Shown here one piece after another: positions 11,534 to 55,519 of a DNA stretch of 64,000 nt. The position numbers and the translations under genes were made by a program. Positions within the stretch are counted from its first letter, which is position 1. Every line of letters begins with the position of its first letter. The notes below the pieces were generated by a model, which searched no databases, was not told where the DNA came from, and worked only from the letters and a program-made list of their open reading frames with translations. Source of the stretch: Comamonas sp. B21-038 (GTDB lineage Bacteria > Pseudomonadota > Gammaproteobacteria > Burkholderiales > Burkholderiaceae_C); NCBI RefSeq assembly GCF_022387135.1, contig NZ_CP092462.1, positions 3,472,001 to 3,536,000 of the forward strand, given 5' to 3'.

Positions 11534-11567
11534 GAAAAAAGCCCGCCGGCTTACACCCCGACGGGCT
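11534..11567 (-). terminator. Rho-independent terminator after the 2-aminoadipate operon
   Basis: On the minus strand, AGCCCGTCGG pairs with CCGGCGGGCT (one wobble) and is followed by TTTTTTCTT. It lies 25 bases after the aminotransferase stop and ends the three-gene operon that begins at 15689. Confidence 0.85.
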
Positions 11568-11591: not shown

Positions 11592-12800
11592 TTAACTGGC
11601 TTTATGAAATGCTTCTGTCAGCCTATCGACCGCCTGCTCAATCTGGGCCACATCGGGCGCCGCAAACGACAGCCGCATCGAATGCAGGTTCGCATTGTCG
11701 GCATAGAAGGCCTTGCCGGGCACAAAGATCACATGGGCCGCCACTGCGGCATCAAACAGCTTTTGCGGATCAATGCGGGCATCAAAGGTCATCCAGACAA
11801 ACATGCCGCCAGCGGGCTGCACAAACTGCACCAGCCCACCCAGACGCGCCTTCAGGCCCTGGGTGAGGGCGAGCATGCGGCGCTGGTACTCGGCACAGGC
11901 CTTGGCCACCGCCTGGCCATAGCGGCCCGACTGCAGGTAGCTGGCGGCCACGGCTTGCGCCAGTGGGGAGGTGCACAGGTCATTGGTCTGCTTGGCCACG
12001 GTGCAGCGGCGCAGCACGGCCGGGTCGGCCACCATCCAGCCCACGCGCAGGCCGGGGGCCACGGTCTTGGACAGGCTCGACAGGTAGACCACGGGGTTCT
12101 CGCCCTCGCCCACGCGCTGCTGGGCTGCGGCATAGACCGGTGCGGGCCGGGCATCGGTGAAGGCCAGCTCGCCATAGGGATCGTCTTCGACGACGACAAA
12201 GCCATACTGCAGCGCCAGCTGCACCAGGCGCTCGCGGCGCTGCTGCACCAGCAAGGTGCCGCAGGGGTTGGAGAAGTTGGGCACGGTGTAGAGCAGCTTG
12301 GGACGCTCGGCCGCCGGCAGCGCCGCCAGCATGGTGGCCAGCGCCTCCACATCCAGGCCATCGCCATCCACTGGCGTGCTCAGGATCTTGGCGCCCGCCT
12401 GGCGCAGCGCCGCAATGGTTGCGGGGTAAGCAGGGGTCTCTACACAGACGGCATCACCGGGCTGGATCAGCACGCGCAGCAGCAGGTCAAAGCCCTGCTG
12501 TGAGCCGGTCGTCACCAGCACGTCGCCAGCGCTGCAGCGGATACCCCGGGCCTGGCACTGCGCGGCCAGCTGCTCGCGCAATGCGGGCGAGCCTTCGGTG
12601 GCGCCGTACTGCAGCGCCGTGGCGCCCGTGGTCATCGCCTGCGCGGCGGCAGCGGCCAGGCCTTCCTGGTCGAACAGGCTGGGCGAGGGGTAGCCGCCCG
12701 CCAGCGAGATCATGCCCGGCCGGCTCAGGTAGGGGAACAGCTCGCGTATGGGCGAGCCCTGGGGGTTGGCAAAGGCGGGAGTGAATTGAAAAAAGGACAT
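11592..12800 (-). CDS. PLP-dependent aminotransferase, probable 2-aminoadipate transaminase
   Basis: Fold-type I class I/II aminotransferase of the LysN/AmaC type, 402 residues, predicted to convert 2-aminoadipate plus 2-oxoglutarate to 2-oxoadipate plus glutamate. Visible features are the N-terminal ISLAGGYPSPSLF segment, LQYGATEGSPALRE, the TTGSQQGFDLL phosphate-binding turn, VPNFSNPCGT, the DDPYGELAF aspartate and the PLP lysine in SLSKTVAPGLRVG (about residue 240). The generic family also covers other amino acids; the 2-aminoadipate call rests on its position as third gene behind HglS and a D-2-hydroxyglutarate dehydrogenase, 72 bases after the latter. A strong terminator follows. Confidence 0.85.
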   Translation of the reverse strand: MSFFQFTPAFANPQGSPIRELFPYLSRPGMISLAGGYPSPSLFDQEGLAAAAAQAMTTGATALQYGATEGSPALREQLAAQCQARGIRCSAGDVLVTTGSQQGFDLLLRVLIQPGDAVCVETPAYPATIAALRQAGAKILSTPVDGDGLDVEALATMLAALPAAERPKLLYTVPNFSNPCGTLLVQQRRERLVQLALQYGFVVVEDDPYGELAFTDARPAPVYAAAQQRVGEGENPVVYLSSLSKTVAPGLRVGWMVADPAVLRRCTVAKQTNDLCTSPLAQAVAASYLQSGRYGQAVAKACAEYQRRMLALTQGLKARLGGLVQFVQPAGGMFVWMTFDARIDPQKLFDAAVAAHVIFVPGKAFYADNANLHSMRLSFAAPDVAQIEQAVDRLTEAFHKAS

Positions 12801-12872
12801 GGCCTTGTCTCGCTGGTTTGTCTCTGGTGGTGGTTATGGGCCATGCCTGCCAACGCGGGCACAGCCAGGGTC

Positions 12873-14312
12873 TCAGTTTTTAGCGGTGCCCAGATCCACG
12901 GTGCCGCACAGGTGCCGGGGATCGAGCCGGTCGCGCCAGCCATCGGCCCATTGCTGCAGCAGCGGCGGCGTAAAGCGCTGGTAGTAGGTGAGGTTGTGGG
13001 GGCCCACGCCATGCTCGGCGCTGTAGCTGCCGCCAAAGTCCTGCACCACCATGCCGTAGATGGCATCGCGCAGGCGCTGCACCACGGCCGGGTCGTACTG
13101 CTCGGGCGCATCCTTGCGCCAGATGACGTTGAAGTGCACACCGCCGTCGGCGATATGGCCAAAGTCCACCACCGTGAGGAAGGGGTAGTCGCGTGCCACC
13201 AGATCGCGCCCTTTGCGGCAGAACTCCATGATGCGCGAGCGCGGCACCGACACATCAAACGCGATGGGCTTGCCCAGCGCACGCGCGCCTTCGCTGATGC
13301 TATGGCGCAGGTGCCACAGCTCGGTGGCATTGCCCAAGGCCGCGTTGACGATGGTCGACTCAAACTGGTCTTCCAGGAAGCTGTTGAGTGCTTCTTGCAG
13401 ATCCAGCTGGCTGTACTTGGGCGAGGCATTCGCTTCCAGCTCGACCAGAATGGCGAACTCAGGCGCATCATCCGGTGCAAAGGGGTTGCGCAGGTTGGGC
13501 ACATGGTCAATGGCCGCCTGCATCGCATTGCCCGAGATGCCTTCGAACGCGGCCAGCCAGTCACCCAGGTCGCGCTCAAAGGACTGCAGCAGCTCCATCA
13601 CCGCCTCGTCCGAGGCCGGCACCACCAGCGCCGTGGCGCGTTGCGCCGGGCGGGCATGCACCTGGATGGTGGCCTGCGTCACGATGGCGCCTGCGCCGGA
13701 GCCGCCGACAAACAACTGCTTCCAGTCCACCCCGGTATTGTTCTTGCGCAGCGCGCGGCCCAGCTCCACCACCTCACCGGGCGGGTCCATCAGCACCACT
13801 TGCAGCGCCATCAGGTTGGAGCGCACATCGCCGTAGCGGATCAGGCGCGTGCCACCGGTGTTGGTGGCCACCATGCCGCCGATCGAGGGGTTGGCACCCA
13901 GATCGATCGGGAACCACAGGCCATGGGGTTCGAGCTGGTCGTTGAGCTCCTGCAGGGTCACGCCAGCGTCCACCACCACGCTGCGGTTGGCCACATCCAC
14001 CTCGCAGCGGCTGCGCAGGCGCGACAGGCTCAGCACCAGCTGGGTGCCGCTCATGTCCGGCGTGCTGGCGCCCACCATGCCGGTATTGGCGCCTTGGGGC
14101 AGCAGCGCAAGGCCGCGTTCGGCGCAGAGCCGTACCACCGCCTGCACCTGTGCCACATCGGCGGGGCGCACCACCAGGCGCGCACGGCCCTGGCCGTAGC
14201 GCGCGCCTTCTTCGTAGGCGGCCATGTCGGCGCCTTGCAGCACCCCGGCTTCGCCCACAATGGCGTGCAGCGCGCCCAGCAACTCGCGGTTGTCCAGATC
14301 AGAGGCGGCCAT
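12873..14312 (-). CDS. FAD-linked oxidoreductase, probable D-2-hydroxyglutarate dehydrogenase
   Basis: Member of the FAD-binding PCMH/vanillyl-alcohol-oxidase family, 479 residues, the normal length of D-2-hydroxyglutarate dehydrogenase. The N-terminal FAD domain shows RPADVAQVQAVV, PQGANTGMVG and PSIGGMVATNTGGTRLIRYG; the C-terminal FAD-oxidase domain ends with SAEHGVGPHNLTYY, the metal/substrate region of the D-lactate and D-2-hydroxyglutarate dehydrogenase group. D-lactate dehydrogenase is the main alternative. Only three bases separate it from the HglS gene, whose product is D-2-hydroxyglutarate, so oxidation of that product to 2-oxoglutarate is the simplest role. Confidence 0.88.
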   Translation of the reverse strand: MAASDLDNRELLGALHAIVGEAGVLQGADMAAYEEGARYGQGRARLVVRPADVAQVQAVVRLCAERGLALLPQGANTGMVGASTPDMSGTQLVLSLSRLRSRCEVDVANRSVVVDAGVTLQELNDQLEPHGLWFPIDLGANPSIGGMVATNTGGTRLIRYGDVRSNLMALQVVLMDPPGEVVELGRALRKNNTGVDWKQLFVGGSGAGAIVTQATIQVHARPAQRATALVVPASDEAVMELLQSFERDLGDWLAAFEGISGNAMQAAIDHVPNLRNPFAPDDAPEFAILVELEANASPKYSQLDLQEALNSFLEDQFESTIVNAALGNATELWHLRHSISEGARALGKPIAFDVSVPRSRIMEFCRKGRDLVARDYPFLTVVDFGHIADGGVHFNVIWRKDAPEQYDPAVVQRLRDAIYGMVVQDFGGSYSAEHGVGPHNLTYYQRFTPPLLQQWADGWRDRLDPRHLCGTVDLGTAKN

Positions 14313-14315
14313 TGC

Positions 14316-15689
14316 TCAGGCCACGCTTTCTGCCACAGCGGCTTGCGCCAGGGCCTCACGCACTGCTTGCAACGACGCATCCTGCATCGCCTGGTACAGC
14401 GCGATCTCGTCATGCACCTGGGCGCCCAGGTCGGCCTCGAACGCCTGCTGCGCCTGGTTGGCTTCATAGTGCTTTTGCTCTTCACCACCCAGGTTGGACT
14501 GGAAGATACCGGCCGCGCTCACCGGCAGAAAGTCCTCGTACACGATCGGCTCGGCGCGCACCACACCATCGGCAATCAAGGTCTCGATATCAGCCGATGC
14601 ATCGCCTACGGGCTGCTGCAGCACATAGCGGTAGAAGGCCAGGCCCTGCTGGCGCATGGCGTCATGGCTGTCGGGGAAGGCCGCGAACGACGACTCCAGG
14701 CGGTCCTGGTAGTTAGCGCTGGCGCTGCCGGCATTGCCCATGCTGCGCACATTGGCCAGCAGGCTGTCGTACAACGCACGGCCCTTGCGGGTCAGCGCCA
14801 CGCCGCGCTGCTCGATCTCGCCAAAACGGGCGGTGTGCGTGCCCTGGTCATCGCTGCCGGGGAAGTTCACGCGCTCCTGCAGCGCCTTGAAGCTGGTCTG
14901 GCGCAGCAGGATCGGGCAGGCGCGGCGGGGTGGGCCTTCGACCACATCCTTGGCATCCATGCCATGGGCGGGCATGCGCTGCTGGGCAGCATCGATATCG
15001 AGGGTGCGCGGCGTCAGGTGGTTGATATGCGGGCCCTTGAAGCAGACCACATCGGCCACCAGGCGGTGTGCCTTGTGCAGCTTGTCATAGGTGGCAGCGT
15101 CCACGGTCGCCTCGCTATGCCAGCGGAAGGTCTCCAGCGCTTCGCGCACAAACTCATCAGCCTCTGCATCGGTCAGGCCACCGGCGGCTTCGCACTGGGC
15201 GATCAGCGCCAGCGCGCGTTCGGTAAAGATCTGGCGGCGGGCGAGGATGGCGGCAGCCTCCTGCCGCAACGCTGCATCGGCCAGCAGATCCAGGCGCAGC
15301 AGCGACGTGAACACGCGGAACGGGTTGCGGTTGAGCGAGCTGCCCAGCACAGGGCGGAACGCGGTGGAGTGCACCGGCACGCCGGCCACCGACAGGTCGT
15401 AGTAGCCCACGGCTTCCATGCCCATCACGGCAAACAGGCGGCGCAGGGTGGACAGCTCCTCCTTGGTGCCCACGCGGATCGCACCATGGCGCTCCACATC
15501 CAGGCGGTCCAGCTCGTCGGCCTGCTCCATCGCCTGCGCCAGCGCGGGCTGGGCCTTCAGCACTTCGCCATTGACCTGGGCCACCAGCGCCATCAGGTTG
15601 CCGTATTGCGGCACTTCGTCGCGGTACATATCGGACATGGCGCGGGAGAAGCGCGAACGAACCTCATCGGGGTGCACAAATTGGGTCAT
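14316..15689 (-). CDS. hglS: 2-oxoadipate dioxygenase/decarboxylase (HglS, DUF1338 family)
   Basis: Non-heme iron enzyme that uses O2 to convert 2-oxoadipate to D-2-hydroxyglutarate and CO2, a late step of D-lysine/pipecolate breakdown described in Pseudomonas putida. The 457-residue protein matches the DUF1338/YdcJ family throughout. His68 and Arg72 in ERHGAIRVGT sit where the metal-ligand histidine and specificity arginine of the P. putida enzyme are reported, from memory. Other conserved pieces are GYYDLS, HSTAFRPV, FRVFTSLLR, and FKGPHINHLTPRTLDID with a second metal histidine. It is the first gene of the operon, with a recognisable promoter about 95-120 bases upstream. Confidence 0.9.
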   Translation of the reverse strand: MTQFVHPDEVRSRFSRAMSDMYRDEVPQYGNLMALVAQVNGEVLKAQPALAQAMEQADELDRLDVERHGAIRVGTKEELSTLRRLFAVMGMEAVGYYDLSVAGVPVHSTAFRPVLGSSLNRNPFRVFTSLLRLDLLADAALRQEAAAILARRQIFTERALALIAQCEAAGGLTDAEADEFVREALETFRWHSEATVDAATYDKLHKAHRLVADVVCFKGPHINHLTPRTLDIDAAQQRMPAHGMDAKDVVEGPPRRACPILLRQTSFKALQERVNFPGSDDQGTHTARFGEIEQRGVALTRKGRALYDSLLANVRSMGNAGSASANYQDRLESSFAAFPDSHDAMRQQGLAFYRYVLQQPVGDASADIETLIADGVVRAEPIVYEDFLPVSAAGIFQSNLGGEEQKHYEANQAQQAFEADLGAQVHDEIALYQAMQDASLQAVREALAQAAVAESVA

Positions 15690-15782
15690 CGTGGGTACCA
15701 GATCAATAGCTAATAAAACGGGGAAACGGGCCTGGTGCCAGCCACCACAGACAGCGGGCGCACCAGGTCAGCACTGCGCGTC

Positions 15783-15811
15783 ATGCTAGGCAGAGCGTTG
15801 TGCCAGGTCAA
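15783..15811 (-). promoter_or_regulatory. Candidate sigma-70 promoter for hglS operon
   Basis: On the minus strand TTGACC and TAGCAT are separated by exactly 17 bases. A transcript would start about 85 bases before the hglS ATG. No dedicated regulator gene lies beside it. Confidence 0.5.
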
Positions 15812-15930
15812 ACGACAATAGCGCGGCACATTATTCCAAATACGCACAACATGGCCGAAGCGGTGGCTGCGATGCGCGATGCGATGCTGGCTGCGCCCCT
15901 GCAGGGCCGGTGTACGCGGCCTGCAGGCAT

Positions 15931-15954
15931 AAAAAAACCCAGCCGGGGCTGGGT
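15931..15954 (-). terminator. Rho-independent terminator after the amino-acid binding protein gene
   Basis: ACCCAGCC / GGCTGGGT stem followed by T7 on the minus strand, 25 bases after the stop of the gene at 15979. It insulates that gene from the hglS operon. Confidence 0.9.
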
Positions 15955-15978: not shown

Positions 15979-16869
15979 TTACTGGTCCGCGTAGGCTTCC
16001 AGAGGCTTGTCGTTAGGCTCTTGCAGCAGCTTCTTCAGCGTATCGCTCATCGGCAGGTTCAGTGCCTGGCCCTTGGGCGGGATCGGTTGCATGAACCACT
16101 TGTCATAGACCTTGGCCAGCTCGCCGGACTTCATCATCTTGGTCAGACTGTCGTCCACGGCCTTCTTGAAGGCGGGGTCGTCCTTGCGGAACAGCAGCGC
16201 AATCGGCTCCGATCCCAGCGCCTCGCCGACAATCTTGTAGCCCGCCGGATTGGCCGAGTTGGCAATCACGCCGGCCAGCAGGTTGTCATCCAGCACAAAG
16301 GCATCGGCACGGCCCGATTCCAGCAGCATGAAGCTCTCGAAGTGGTCCTTGCCCAGGGTGGTGGGCAGGTTGATGCTGTTGTCCTTGGCAAACTTGCGCA
16401 GCAGCTGCACGGCGGTGGTACCGGCCGAGGCTGCCACCGTCTTGCCATCGAGCTGCTTGACGCTGGTGATGTTGGAATCGGCACGTACCGCGGCGCGCAC
16501 CTGGCTCACATAGGTGGTCACCGCAAAGGCCACCTGCTTTTGGCGGCTGAGGTTGTTGGTGGTGGGGCCGCAGCCGATGTCCACGGTGCCGTTTTGCACC
16601 AGTGGCATCGTGTTCTGGGCCGTCAGCGCCATGTATTCGATCTTGGCCTTGGGCGCGATGTCCTTGAGCACGCGCTCGCACAGCTCGACGTGGTAGCCGC
16701 CGAAGGTCTGGTTGGAGCCGATGGCGTAGGCCATCGGGGCCGAGCTTTCGCGCACGCCTACCACCACCTTGCCGCTGCTGTTGATCTTGTCGAAGGTGCT
16801 TTGCGCAAACGCCGCGCCGCCTGCGGCAAAAGCCACCGCTGCAGCAAGCATCTTGATGCTGAATGTCAT
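15979..16869 (-). CDS. Glutamate/aspartate-type (GltI-like) ABC transporter substrate-binding protein
   Basis: Periplasmic amino-acid receptor of solute-binding family 3, 296 residues. The signal peptide ends at GGAAFAQS, followed by FDKINSSGKVVVGVRESSAPMAY, the typical opening of GltI proteins. GCGPTTNN and VAASAGTTAVQLL are family signatures; the latter forms part of the ligand pocket. The ATG at 16869 has a perfect AAGGAG site. Neither permease nor ATPase genes are adjacent, so it stands alone between its own terminator and the pgi region. Its position upstream of the 2-aminoadipate operon makes an acidic amino acid such as glutamate, aspartate or 2-aminoadipate plausible. Confidence 0.9.
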   Translation of the reverse strand: MTFSIKMLAAAVAFAAGGAAFAQSTFDKINSSGKVVVGVRESSAPMAYAIGSNQTFGGYHVELCERVLKDIAPKAKIEYMALTAQNTMPLVQNGTVDIGCGPTTNNLSRQKQVAFAVTTYVSQVRAAVRADSNITSVKQLDGKTVAASAGTTAVQLLRKFAKDNSINLPTTLGKDHFESFMLLESGRADAFVLDDNLLAGVIANSANPAGYKIVGEALGSEPIALLFRKDDPAFKKAVDDSLTKMMKSGELAKVYDKWFMQPIPPKGQALNLPMSDTLKKLLQEPNDKPLEAYADQ

Positions 16870-17095
16870 TGTGTACTCCTTGGAAATGATGAATTGGCAG
16901 CCAGGCGTGGGGCCGAAGCTGCTCCACCAGCTTTGTGGTTGCGCTGGTCTTGGTGCGCTGCGCATGCGCGCTTGAGAGCAAACTGGATGCACTGGCTTTG
17001 CGCCAGCGCATCCAGCCTCCAAGTATTCCAGAGAGTCGCGCCAATCCCTAGCGCGGATTCCGAAGCATGTGTTGCTGTTTTGGAAACACCGTGCT

Positions 17096-54601: not shown

Positions 54602-55519
54602 CTAGCCGCCTTGGGGCAGGTTTTCCCACCAGGCGGCATCAAAGCTGCCCTGCAGGAACGCGATAAAGGACTGCACCTTTTGCGGCACCAGGCGCGGCGA
54701 GGGGTAGACCGCGTGGATCTCCTGCTCCGGCAGGCGGCAGGTCTTGAGCACCTCGACCACGCGGCCCGCCTTTAGCGATTCATGCGCCACATAGCGCGGC
54801 AGCGCGGCGACGCCCATGTGCGAGCGCGCCGCAGCCAGCAAGGCCGAGAGGTTGTTGGAGCGCAGCCGCCCGGTGACCGGCACGGAGACGGACTCGCCAC
54901 TGGCATTGCGCAGGCGCCAGACATCATTGCCCTGCACGCTGCTGTAGATCAGCGCCGAATGCTCTTTCAGTTCCGACGGCTTTCGGGGCGTGCCGTGCTT
55001 GCGAAGGTAGGCGGGCGAGGCCACCAGCACCCAGGGATTGACCCCCAGCATGCGCGCGCCCAGCGATGAATCGGCCAGCTTGCCCAGGCGCAGCGCCACA
55101 TCGATGCCCTGGGCCACCAGGTCGGTGTAGCGGTCTTCAAAGCTCAGGTCCACCTGCACCTGCGGGTTGTGTTGCATGAACTCCATCGCCAGCGGAATCA
55201 GCACGCGCCGCCCAAACGCCACCGAGCTGCCAATGCGCAGCTGGCCCTGCACCTGCGTCTGCCGCACCTGCACCACATTGTCGGCATCGGCCACATCGCT
55301 GACGATGCGCTTGCATTTCTCGTAGTACAGCGCGCCCGCTTCGGTCAGGCTCACACCGCGCGTATTGCGGTTGAGCAGGCGCACTTTGAGCCGCGCCTCC
55401 ATCGCTGCGACCTGCTTGGTCACCGTGGGCTGGGTCGATGAAAACTCCTGCGCCACCTTGGTGAAGCTGCCCGTTTCCACCACGCGCACAAACATGTGCA
55501 TGGCATCGAGTCGGTCCAT
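54602..55519 (-). CDS. LysR-type regulator of the glyoxylate/glycerate genes
   Basis: 305-residue LysR regulator: winged helix in the first 60 residues (AMHMFVRVVETGSFTKVAQ, TQPTVTKQVAAMEARLKVRL) and a periplasmic-binding-like effector domain. It is divergent from gcl across 212 bases that contain two operator-like palindromes, so it most likely activates gcl-hyi-glxR. Effector probably glyoxylate or a relative; inferred from context, not sequence. Confidence 0.92.
   Translation of the reverse strand: MDRLDAMHMFVRVVETGSFTKVAQEFSSTQPTVTKQVAAMEARLKVRLLNRNTRGVSLTEAGALYYEKCKRIVSDVADADNVVQVRQTQVQGQLRIGSSVAFGRRVLIPLAMEFMQHNPQVQVDLSFEDRYTDLVAQGIDVALRLGKLADSSLGARMLGVNPWVLVASPAYLRKHGTPRKPSELKEHSALIYSSVQGNDVWRLRNASGESVSVPVTGRLRSNNLSALLAAARSHMGVAALPRYVAHESLKAGRVVEVLKTCRLPEQEIHAVYPSPRLVPQKVQSFIAFLQGSFDAAWWENLPQGG

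Follow-up and report, generated by a model that had tools for sequence, protein, structure and literature searches.

The hglS operon

The 64,000-nucleotide stretch of the Comamonas sp. B21-038 genome analyzed here (contig NZ_CP092462.1, positions 3,472,001 to 3,536,000; hereafter the window, to which coordinates refer unless a genome or locus is named) carries on its minus strand three co-directional genes which very probably constitute a dedicated catabolic operon for the conversion of 2-aminoadipate to 2-oxoglutarate. According to the open reading frame calls, positions 14316 to 15689 encode HglS (457 amino acids), 12873 to 14312 encode a two-domain flavin adenine dinucleotide (FAD) dehydrogenase (479 amino acids), and 11592 to 12800 encode a class I/II aminotransferase dependent on pyridoxal phosphate (402 amino acids). 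The gaps of 3 bases between hglS and the dehydrogenase gene and of 72 bases between the dehydrogenase and aminotransferase genes agree with the tight packing described in an earlier note on this DNA, which had also assigned the genes one promoter and a terminator. Promoter-like and terminator-like sites are not enriched in the region over shuffled sequences (2 observed versus 2.0 and 8 versus 8.1, respectively), yet the predicted promoter (15783 to 15811, minus strand; TTGACC-17-TAGCAT) is kept in all five aligned Comamonas loci, and the predicted terminator (11540 to 11567, minus strand) recurs as a stem and T run at the same place in five Comamonas loci, with sequence changes in the stem. 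At a similar place in several relatives that carry a LysR gene, we found TCGTTTGAC. A survey of the gene order, proposed as a check in the earlier note, detected the three genes in C. koreensis, Comamonas sp. JUb58, Comamonas sp. BIGb0152, C. odontotermitis, C. kerstersii, and Polaromonas sp. OV174, as well as on a Variovorax plasmid, a recurrence that is not due to chance; the operon is real.

HglS, reportedly first described in a 2019 paper in mBio, passes in the window the curated cutoff of NF049974 (732 bits versus 550) and matches PF07063 (HGLS) with 556 bits. Residues 3 to 448 of its 457 align with P. putida HglS (6w1g), with which it shares the equivalog family and the motifs ERHGAIR (residue 66), HINHLT, and GEIEQ, and its His68 and Arg72 correspond in this alignment to His70 and Arg74. 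The metal ligands are an HHE triad, and Arg74 is the specificity arginine. The window protein is predicted to be a 2-oxoadipate dioxygenase/decarboxylase (D-2-hydroxyglutarate synthase). PMC7286885 reports that P. putida HglS, among the substrates tested, was active only on 2-oxoadipate and that Arg74 matters for its substrate specificity. HglS was detected in 40 of the 53 genomes of the genus (E 1e-60), and its identity to the proteins of three of the named loci (C. koreensis and two Comamonas sp.) is 98%, 98%, and 95%. In the wider group the protein is uncommon: counting the genome under study each time, it exceeds the cutoff in 7 of 120 family genomes, 8 of 399 order genomes, and 15 of 369 class genomes.

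Unlike the D-lysine/2-aminoadipate route of P. putida, that of the window has the genes of the aminotransferase and of a short FAD dehydrogenase in one operon with hglS, and AmaA was not detected (see below). In P. putida the dehydrogenase is of the YdiJ type and the pathway genes are scattered; at two Pseudomonas hglS loci (L052 and L057; L and G numbers designate loci and genomes of our survey), none of the partner genes searched for was detected within about 9 kb.

The aminotransferase belongs to PF00155 (Aminotran_1_2) and reached no NCBIfam cutoff among the best 25 of 68 families. It matches the alpha-aminoadipate aminotransferase of T. thermophilus (2egy, E 1.6e-71) and the human kynurenine/alpha-aminoadipate aminotransferase (4gdy, E 5.3e-45), and from its kinship to the LysN/KAT II group, which is broad in substrate, it is predicted to be a 2-aminoadipate aminotransferase. 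T. thermophilus LysN (2egy/2zyj), a member of the same group, acts in lysine synthesis, whereas the window enzyme is predicted to act in breakdown.

The FAD dehydrogenase and its neighborhood

The dehydrogenase is composed of FAD_binding_4 and FAD-oxidase_C domains (Pfam) and reaches no curated NCBIfam cutoff. Its match to the YdiJ model covers only residues 47 to 176 (130 residues; 74 bits versus a cutoff of 1350, in a model of 1018 positions), and against the GlcD model TIGR00387 it scores 172.7 bits versus a cutoff of 568, below which the enzymes of the Lys401 type, named here after a residue of human D2HGDH, also fall. In the annotated records examined, this branch is labeled "FAD-binding oxidoreductase" only. 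The nearest solved chains by sequence are the putative dehydrogenase 3pm9 and human D2HGDH (6lpn), which are also the nearest in structure and on which the AlphaFold2 model (mean predicted local distance difference test score, 87) superposes with Z 44.6, root mean square deviation 2.1, and 456 residues aligned and with Z 43.0, root mean square deviation 2.3, and 452 residues aligned, respectively, at 31% identity over the structural alignments. LDHD structures (mouse LDHD) give a Z of about 41, which is close to that of D2HGDH, so that the fold leaves the substrate undecided.

The metal (Zn), C1-carboxylate, and catalytic residues are common to the window enzyme, 3pm9, and human D2HGDH, R336, H386, H393, E433, and H434 corresponding to human Arg386, His434, His441, Glu475, and His476. 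Among the residues that surround the C5 carboxylate in human D2HGDH, Asn443 is kept, while Thr390 is replaced by Ser, Tyr432 by Phe, and Lys401 by Ala351. In PMC7801405, Lys401 is described as binding the C5 carboxylate and its mutation as abolishing the activity of the human enzyme, and GlcD and D-lactate dehydrogenases are described as having hydrophobic residues at the Asn443 and Thr390 places; in E. coli GlcD these are Phe and Leu. A tree built from 42 proteins groups the window type into a 26-member clade with 100/100 support; 20 members are encoded beside hglS and 6 are not. Since the Lys401 place is occupied by Ala351 in the window enzyme and by Lys in none of the 26, we do not file this dehydrogenase as a human-type D2HGDH. 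Asn443 is kept in 24 members, and the Thr390 place holds Ser in 22 and Ser or Thr in 23. In all 26, the residue at window position 344 is basic (Arg or Lys) and that at 358 is Arg; both are kept as candidates for the role of Lys401, although 344 is Lys also in the paralogue L094 and 358 is Arg also in GlcD. A basic residue at position 348 was considered as a substitute for Lys401 as well (10 of 10 at first) and was discarded when wider sampling gave Glu or Pro in 3 of 26. E. coli YdiJ also is without Lys401 and is reported (PMC9504171) as a D-2-hydroxyglutarate dehydrogenase, so that the missing lysine is compatible with this activity; YdiJ differs from the window enzyme in its length (about 1000 versus 479 amino acids) and in having Arg at the Asn443 place.

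A dehydrogenase with at least 70% identity occurs in 13 of the 53 genus genomes, all of which have HglS, and the distance between the two genes is 6 to 35 bp in each of the 12 genomes where they share a contig (in G888 they lie on different contigs). In G082, from another genus of the same family, one open frame of 1165 amino acids comprises HglS (264 to 697) and the dehydrogenase (699 to 1160) and is followed by the aminotransferase gene, a fusion seen in one assembly. The order in G664 is LysR, hglS, dehydrogenase, piperideine-6-carboxylate (P6C) dehydrogenase, an aminotransferase which is likewise class I/II but from a different subgroup, and an AmaA-like oxidase, the last scoring 444 versus a cutoff of 600. 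On S. meliloti pSymB, an Agrobacterium Ti plasmid, and plasmids of Paracoccus and Aureimonas, we identified the order hglS, dehydrogenase, aldehyde dehydrogenase, aminotransferase, and the aldehyde dehydrogenases of G664 and of these four Alphaproteobacterial plasmids pass the curated P6C dehydrogenase cutoff in five of five cases. Among plasmid relatives of the dehydrogenase, 16 of the 19 records with at least 44% identity were examined; hglS is adjacent in 10, and the stretch contains none in 6.

Other dehydrogenases also accompany hglS. One of the Lys401 type is found upstream, beside hglS, in L018, L098, and L099, another of this type downstream of hglS in L025, and YdiJ-type genes, whose products likewise have no Lys401, adjoin hglS in L039, L042, L050, L051, and L053; at many other hglS loci none of these dehydrogenase types was found beside hglS. 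Since three other types of D-2-hydroxyacid dehydrogenase, YdiJ included, are paired with hglS elsewhere, D-2-hydroxyglutarate is the best guess for the substrate, and the window dehydrogenase is predicted to be a D-2-hydroxyglutarate dehydrogenase on the basis of its genomic context and not of its active site. Of the YdiJ-type loci, that of Gellertiella hungarica (L051:10412-14635) has a 1407-amino-acid frame running from the dehydrogenase into an AmaA-like oxidase and adjoining hglS and a P6C dehydrogenase gene.

Electron transfer flavoprotein (ETF) genes follow the hglS operon in Variovorax and Aureimonas, which suggests ETF as the electron acceptor of the dehydrogenase; ETF genes also adjoin relatives of the dehydrogenase that are without hglS. 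The available portion of PMC8651671 gives GntR, ETF, SerA, CdaR, LldP, and GlcF genes as frequent d2hgdh neighbors and makes no mention of HglS. On the Variovorax paradoxus plasmid (L107:1-14024), the genes ahead of the hglS operon encode two gamma-glutamyltransferases and an ABC transporter ATPase, and those after it encode a solute-binding protein and the ETF pair. The hglS-less relatives of L112, L114, and L118 have ETF genes as neighbors and belong to clusters of the acyl-CoA or fumarylacetoacetase type. In those of L112 and L118, pocket places are occupied by Pro and Ser, so that the substrates of the clade are probably not limited to one.

Several observations weigh against a D-2-hydroxyglutarate dehydrogenase that serves HglS. 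Lys401 is absent from every clade member (Ala in 23, Ser in 2, Thr in 1), the genome under study also carries a Lys401-type paralogue (L092), 6 of the 26 members are not beside hglS, some of them lying in clusters that point to other substrates, and 27 of the 40 HglS-bearing genus genomes are without a window-type dehydrogenase at 70% identity. The replaced lysine, the paralogue, and the relatives away from hglS, along with a fold nearly as near to mouse LDHD as to human D2HGDH, would fit an enzyme for D-lactate or another D-2-hydroxyacid which is a mere neighbor of hglS, the pathway being finished by the Lys401-type paralogue elsewhere. We deem this quite improbable, because the adjacency to hglS is strict and includes one fusion with HglS, because most of the clade keeps Asn443 and Ser or Thr at the Thr390 place, where GlcD and D-lactate dehydrogenases are hydrophobic (PMC7801405), and because YdiJ, reported as a D-2-hydroxyglutarate dehydrogenase (PMC9504171), shares the lack of Lys401. 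The name "D-2-hydroxyglutarate dehydrogenase" given in the earlier note is founded on the hglS context and needs qualifying in that the enzyme comes from a divergent branch devoid of the lysine for the distal carboxylate.

The periplasmic receptor and the putative LysR operator

Upstream of hglS, positions 15979 to 16908 (minus strand) encode a lone periplasmic receptor of the glutamate/aspartate type (SBP_bac_3, PF00497), which matches 2ia4/2vha (E 5.4e-66) and scores 257 bits against PRK10797, below the cutoff of 375. Its gene ends 289 bases from the start of hglS, with its own predicted terminator between them (15937 to 15954, minus strand; kept in four of five aligned loci), and is probably a separate transcript. 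Receptors with at least 70% identity are found in 35 of the 53 genus genomes, 34 of which have HglS; in 33 of these 34 the receptor gene lies no more than 13.1 kb from hglS (no more than 2.4 kb in 27), and in G895 it is on another contig. Six HglS-bearing genus genomes are without the receptor, and G925 has a receptor (74%) without HglS; the association gives a Fisher p of 7.8e-7, kinship ignored, and since the genus loci are akin to each other, neither these linkage counts nor the operator counts below are independent. Two of the genomes with HglS and no receptor, G885 and G892, have a TctC-type receptor gene that overlaps a Lys401-type dehydrogenase gene, with hglS next to it. The same arrangement, with a LysR operator before the TctC gene, was observed in L018:6624-10539, L098:4668-9565, and L099:4720-9610, where the TctC-type receptor apparently stands in for the amino acid receptor.

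In many relatives, a LysR gene is divergent from hglS. The palindrome GTCATTC-N7-GAATGAC, noticed in 8 of the 11 hglS upstream sequences read, is the candidate operator and was scored over its 14 arm positions. Among 22 loci marked as LysR-bearing, 14 score 12 to 14 with a spacer of 7 before hglS, including six (L017, L019, L020, L050, L051, and L053) outside the derivation of the motif; L026 scores 11, and L018, L098, and L099 have the operator before the TctC gene instead of hglS (12, 12, and 13). The operator fails, with 9 to 10, in the LysR-bearing Alphaproteobacterial loci L108, L109, L110, and L117, and loci with a more distant LysR, unmarked as LysR-bearing (L022, L024, L025, L027, L029, L031, L033, and L035), score 9 to 11. 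The shuffles of this 22-locus test keep base composition only and are a weak null. Over loci L015 to L059 (818 kb), 18 sites score at least 12, 11 of them before hglS, 1 before a TctC gene, 2 before a receptor gene, and 4 elsewhere, and of 4000 random 320-bp pieces drawn from these same loci, true sites included, 1.35% reach 11 and 0.55% reach 12. Before the receptor gene, the operator scores 12 each in L047, L049, and L103 and, more weakly, 11 each in L101 and L102. With the motif fixed beforehand, 20 further genus loci were scored, one of which (L142) is the genome of L023, partly used to derive the motif. All 19 with LysR show at least 12 before hglS and at least 11 before the receptor gene, where 14 of them reach at least 12, and the sole LysR-less locus, L140, scores 9 and 8. 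In L019 (position 11550; G022), a second operator copy (13 of 14) immediately precedes an ABC-transporter ATPase-like frame in the vicinity of hglS and AmaA.

No such LysR lies beside hglS in the window, L043, L044, L045, and L046, and the score before hglS is 9 in each; before the receptor gene it is 9 in the window, L043, and L045. The window site (15830 to 15850, minus strand; 9 of 14 arm positions) is a degenerate remnant which, in the window and L043 to L045, lies 35 bp before TCGTTTGAC, as expected; LysR-bearing relatives mostly score 12 to 14, with an offset of 35 to 36 bp where TCGTTTGAC occurs. Within the 64 kb of the window, the only LysR is a distant one (25% identity, 54635 to 55447), the rest of the genome not having been searched for a displaced copy. 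Since LysR-bearing loci share the operator at hglS and the receptor gene and LysR-less loci are without it, the receptor and the operon probably belong to one LysR regulon in the genus, dismantled in the lineage of the window. The block TTGTGCGTA..TTGGAA to TAGCAT (15782 to 15850) is kept in five LysR-less Comamonas loci despite the degenerate operator, as if another regulator now binds there.

The receptor might instead serve ordinary glutamate or aspartate uptake, its adjacency to hglS being an inherited order next to pgi, as its subfamily, its position by pgi in several loci, and the occurrence of a receptor without HglS in G925 would allow. This is unlikely in our view, given that the receptor gene and hglS share the palindrome in the 19 further LysR-bearing loci and in Polaromonas, and that the receptor palindrome is missing from the LysR-less loci examined (window, L043, L045, and L140) and from G925. 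The amino acid receptor probably belongs to the hglS system, a link which the earlier note had put forward as speculative and to which the genus synteny (33 of 34) and the shared operators (19 of 19 loci) lend support. The downstream D-aminoacylase, also linked to the operon in that note, was rejected as a member of the system together with the TctC receptor: both genes lie behind the operon terminator and are not beside the operon in Comamonas sp. JUb58. D-aminoacylase was not found beside the operon in C. kerstersii and Polaromonas either; D-aminoacylase/TctC genes do accompany it in C. koreensis, Comamonas sp. BIGb0152, and C. odontotermitis.

Supply of 2-aminoadipate and the proposed pathway

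The earlier note had placed the operon at the end of D-lysine/pipecolate breakdown. In agreement with this, the genome under study encodes a P6C dehydrogenase of the AmaB equivalog (G000:C1:3215796-3217325; 818 bits versus a cutoff of 730), 269 kb from the operon; against it, no AmaA-like pipecolate oxidase was detected in this genome at E 1e-20, lysine 6-aminotransferase, DpkA, and racemases not being among the proteins searched for. C. kerstersii (G880), with the same operon and receptor, has no match to the P6C dehydrogenase (E 1e-60) or to AmaA (E 1e-20). Because AmaA is missing from the former genome and both AmaB and AmaA from the latter at these thresholds, the evidence favors the uptake of external 2-aminoadipate over a full D-lysine/pipecolate route. 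A non-AmaA enzyme could still turn lysine into piperideine-6-carboxylate, from which the distant AmaB would make 2-aminoadipate for the operon to finish. The AmaB equivalog and the occurrence of the same dehydrogenase clade in P6C dehydrogenase operons of Alphaproteobacteria and G664 speak for such a route, whereas the lack of an AmaA-like match, a saccharopine-dehydrogenase C-domain represented by a single weak match (G000:C1:1375464-1376129, L096; 52.8 bits versus a cutoff of 31), and the presence of the three genes in C. kerstersii without an AmaB match speak against it; we regard it as a serious possibility, somewhat short of even chances. The P6C dehydrogenase gene of the genome under study stands beside a thiamine-diphosphate enzyme gene and a divergent LysR gene (L089:6741-11518), and relatives of these two (51% and 42%, respectively) are found beside hglS in G276 (L027).

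The route from 2-aminoadipate through 2-oxoadipate and D-2-hydroxyglutarate to 2-oxoglutarate, as drawn in the earlier note, is well backed by the protein families, the synteny, the fusion, and the complete operons found elsewhere. The aminotransferase would convert 2-aminoadipate into 2-oxoadipate, a 2-oxoacid accepting the amino group, and HglS, with Fe(II) and O2, would decarboxylate and hydroxylate 2-oxoadipate to D-2-hydroxyglutarate; the FAD dehydrogenase would then oxidize this to 2-oxoglutarate, passing the electrons probably to ETF. The input is here most likely 2-aminoadipate taken up via the lone glutamate-type receptor and a putative shared ABC permease, to which the distant AmaB would add whatever 2-aminoadipate it supplies. 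In relatives, the divergent LysR probably controls the operon and the receptor gene through an operator of the GTCATTC-N7-GAATGAC type; in the lineage of the window, where hglS has lost its neighboring LysR gene and neither operator persists, the operon would be otherwise regulated or constitutive.

To the known chemistry of HglS, the present analysis adds a dehydrogenase branch, its fusion with HglS, a link to the receptor, and an operator. In the open-licence literature, as far as titles and the beginnings of abstracts among the matches listed extend, neither an hglS-dehydrogenase-aminotransferase operon nor this dehydrogenase branch or operator is described. By a small margin of confidence, we favor the interpretation that the branch is a type of D-2-hydroxyglutarate dehydrogenase which has not been described and is linked mostly to HglS, which would grip the distal carboxylate without Lys401, perhaps by the basic residue at position 344, and which would cooperate with HglS so closely as to have given rise to the putatively bifunctional G082 protein, and that hglS, the partner genes, and a lone receptor for 2-aminoadipate form a LysR regulon dismantled in the lineage of the window. 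Lysine breakdown in bacteria and plants passes through 2-aminoadipate and D-2-hydroxyglutarate, the latter of which is also a disease metabolite; the compact operon allows all steps from 2-aminoadipate to 2-oxoglutarate to be tested in a simple system, and it offers a candidate 2-aminoadipate receptor, a candidate operator, and a dehydrogenase branch of predicted function to characterize.

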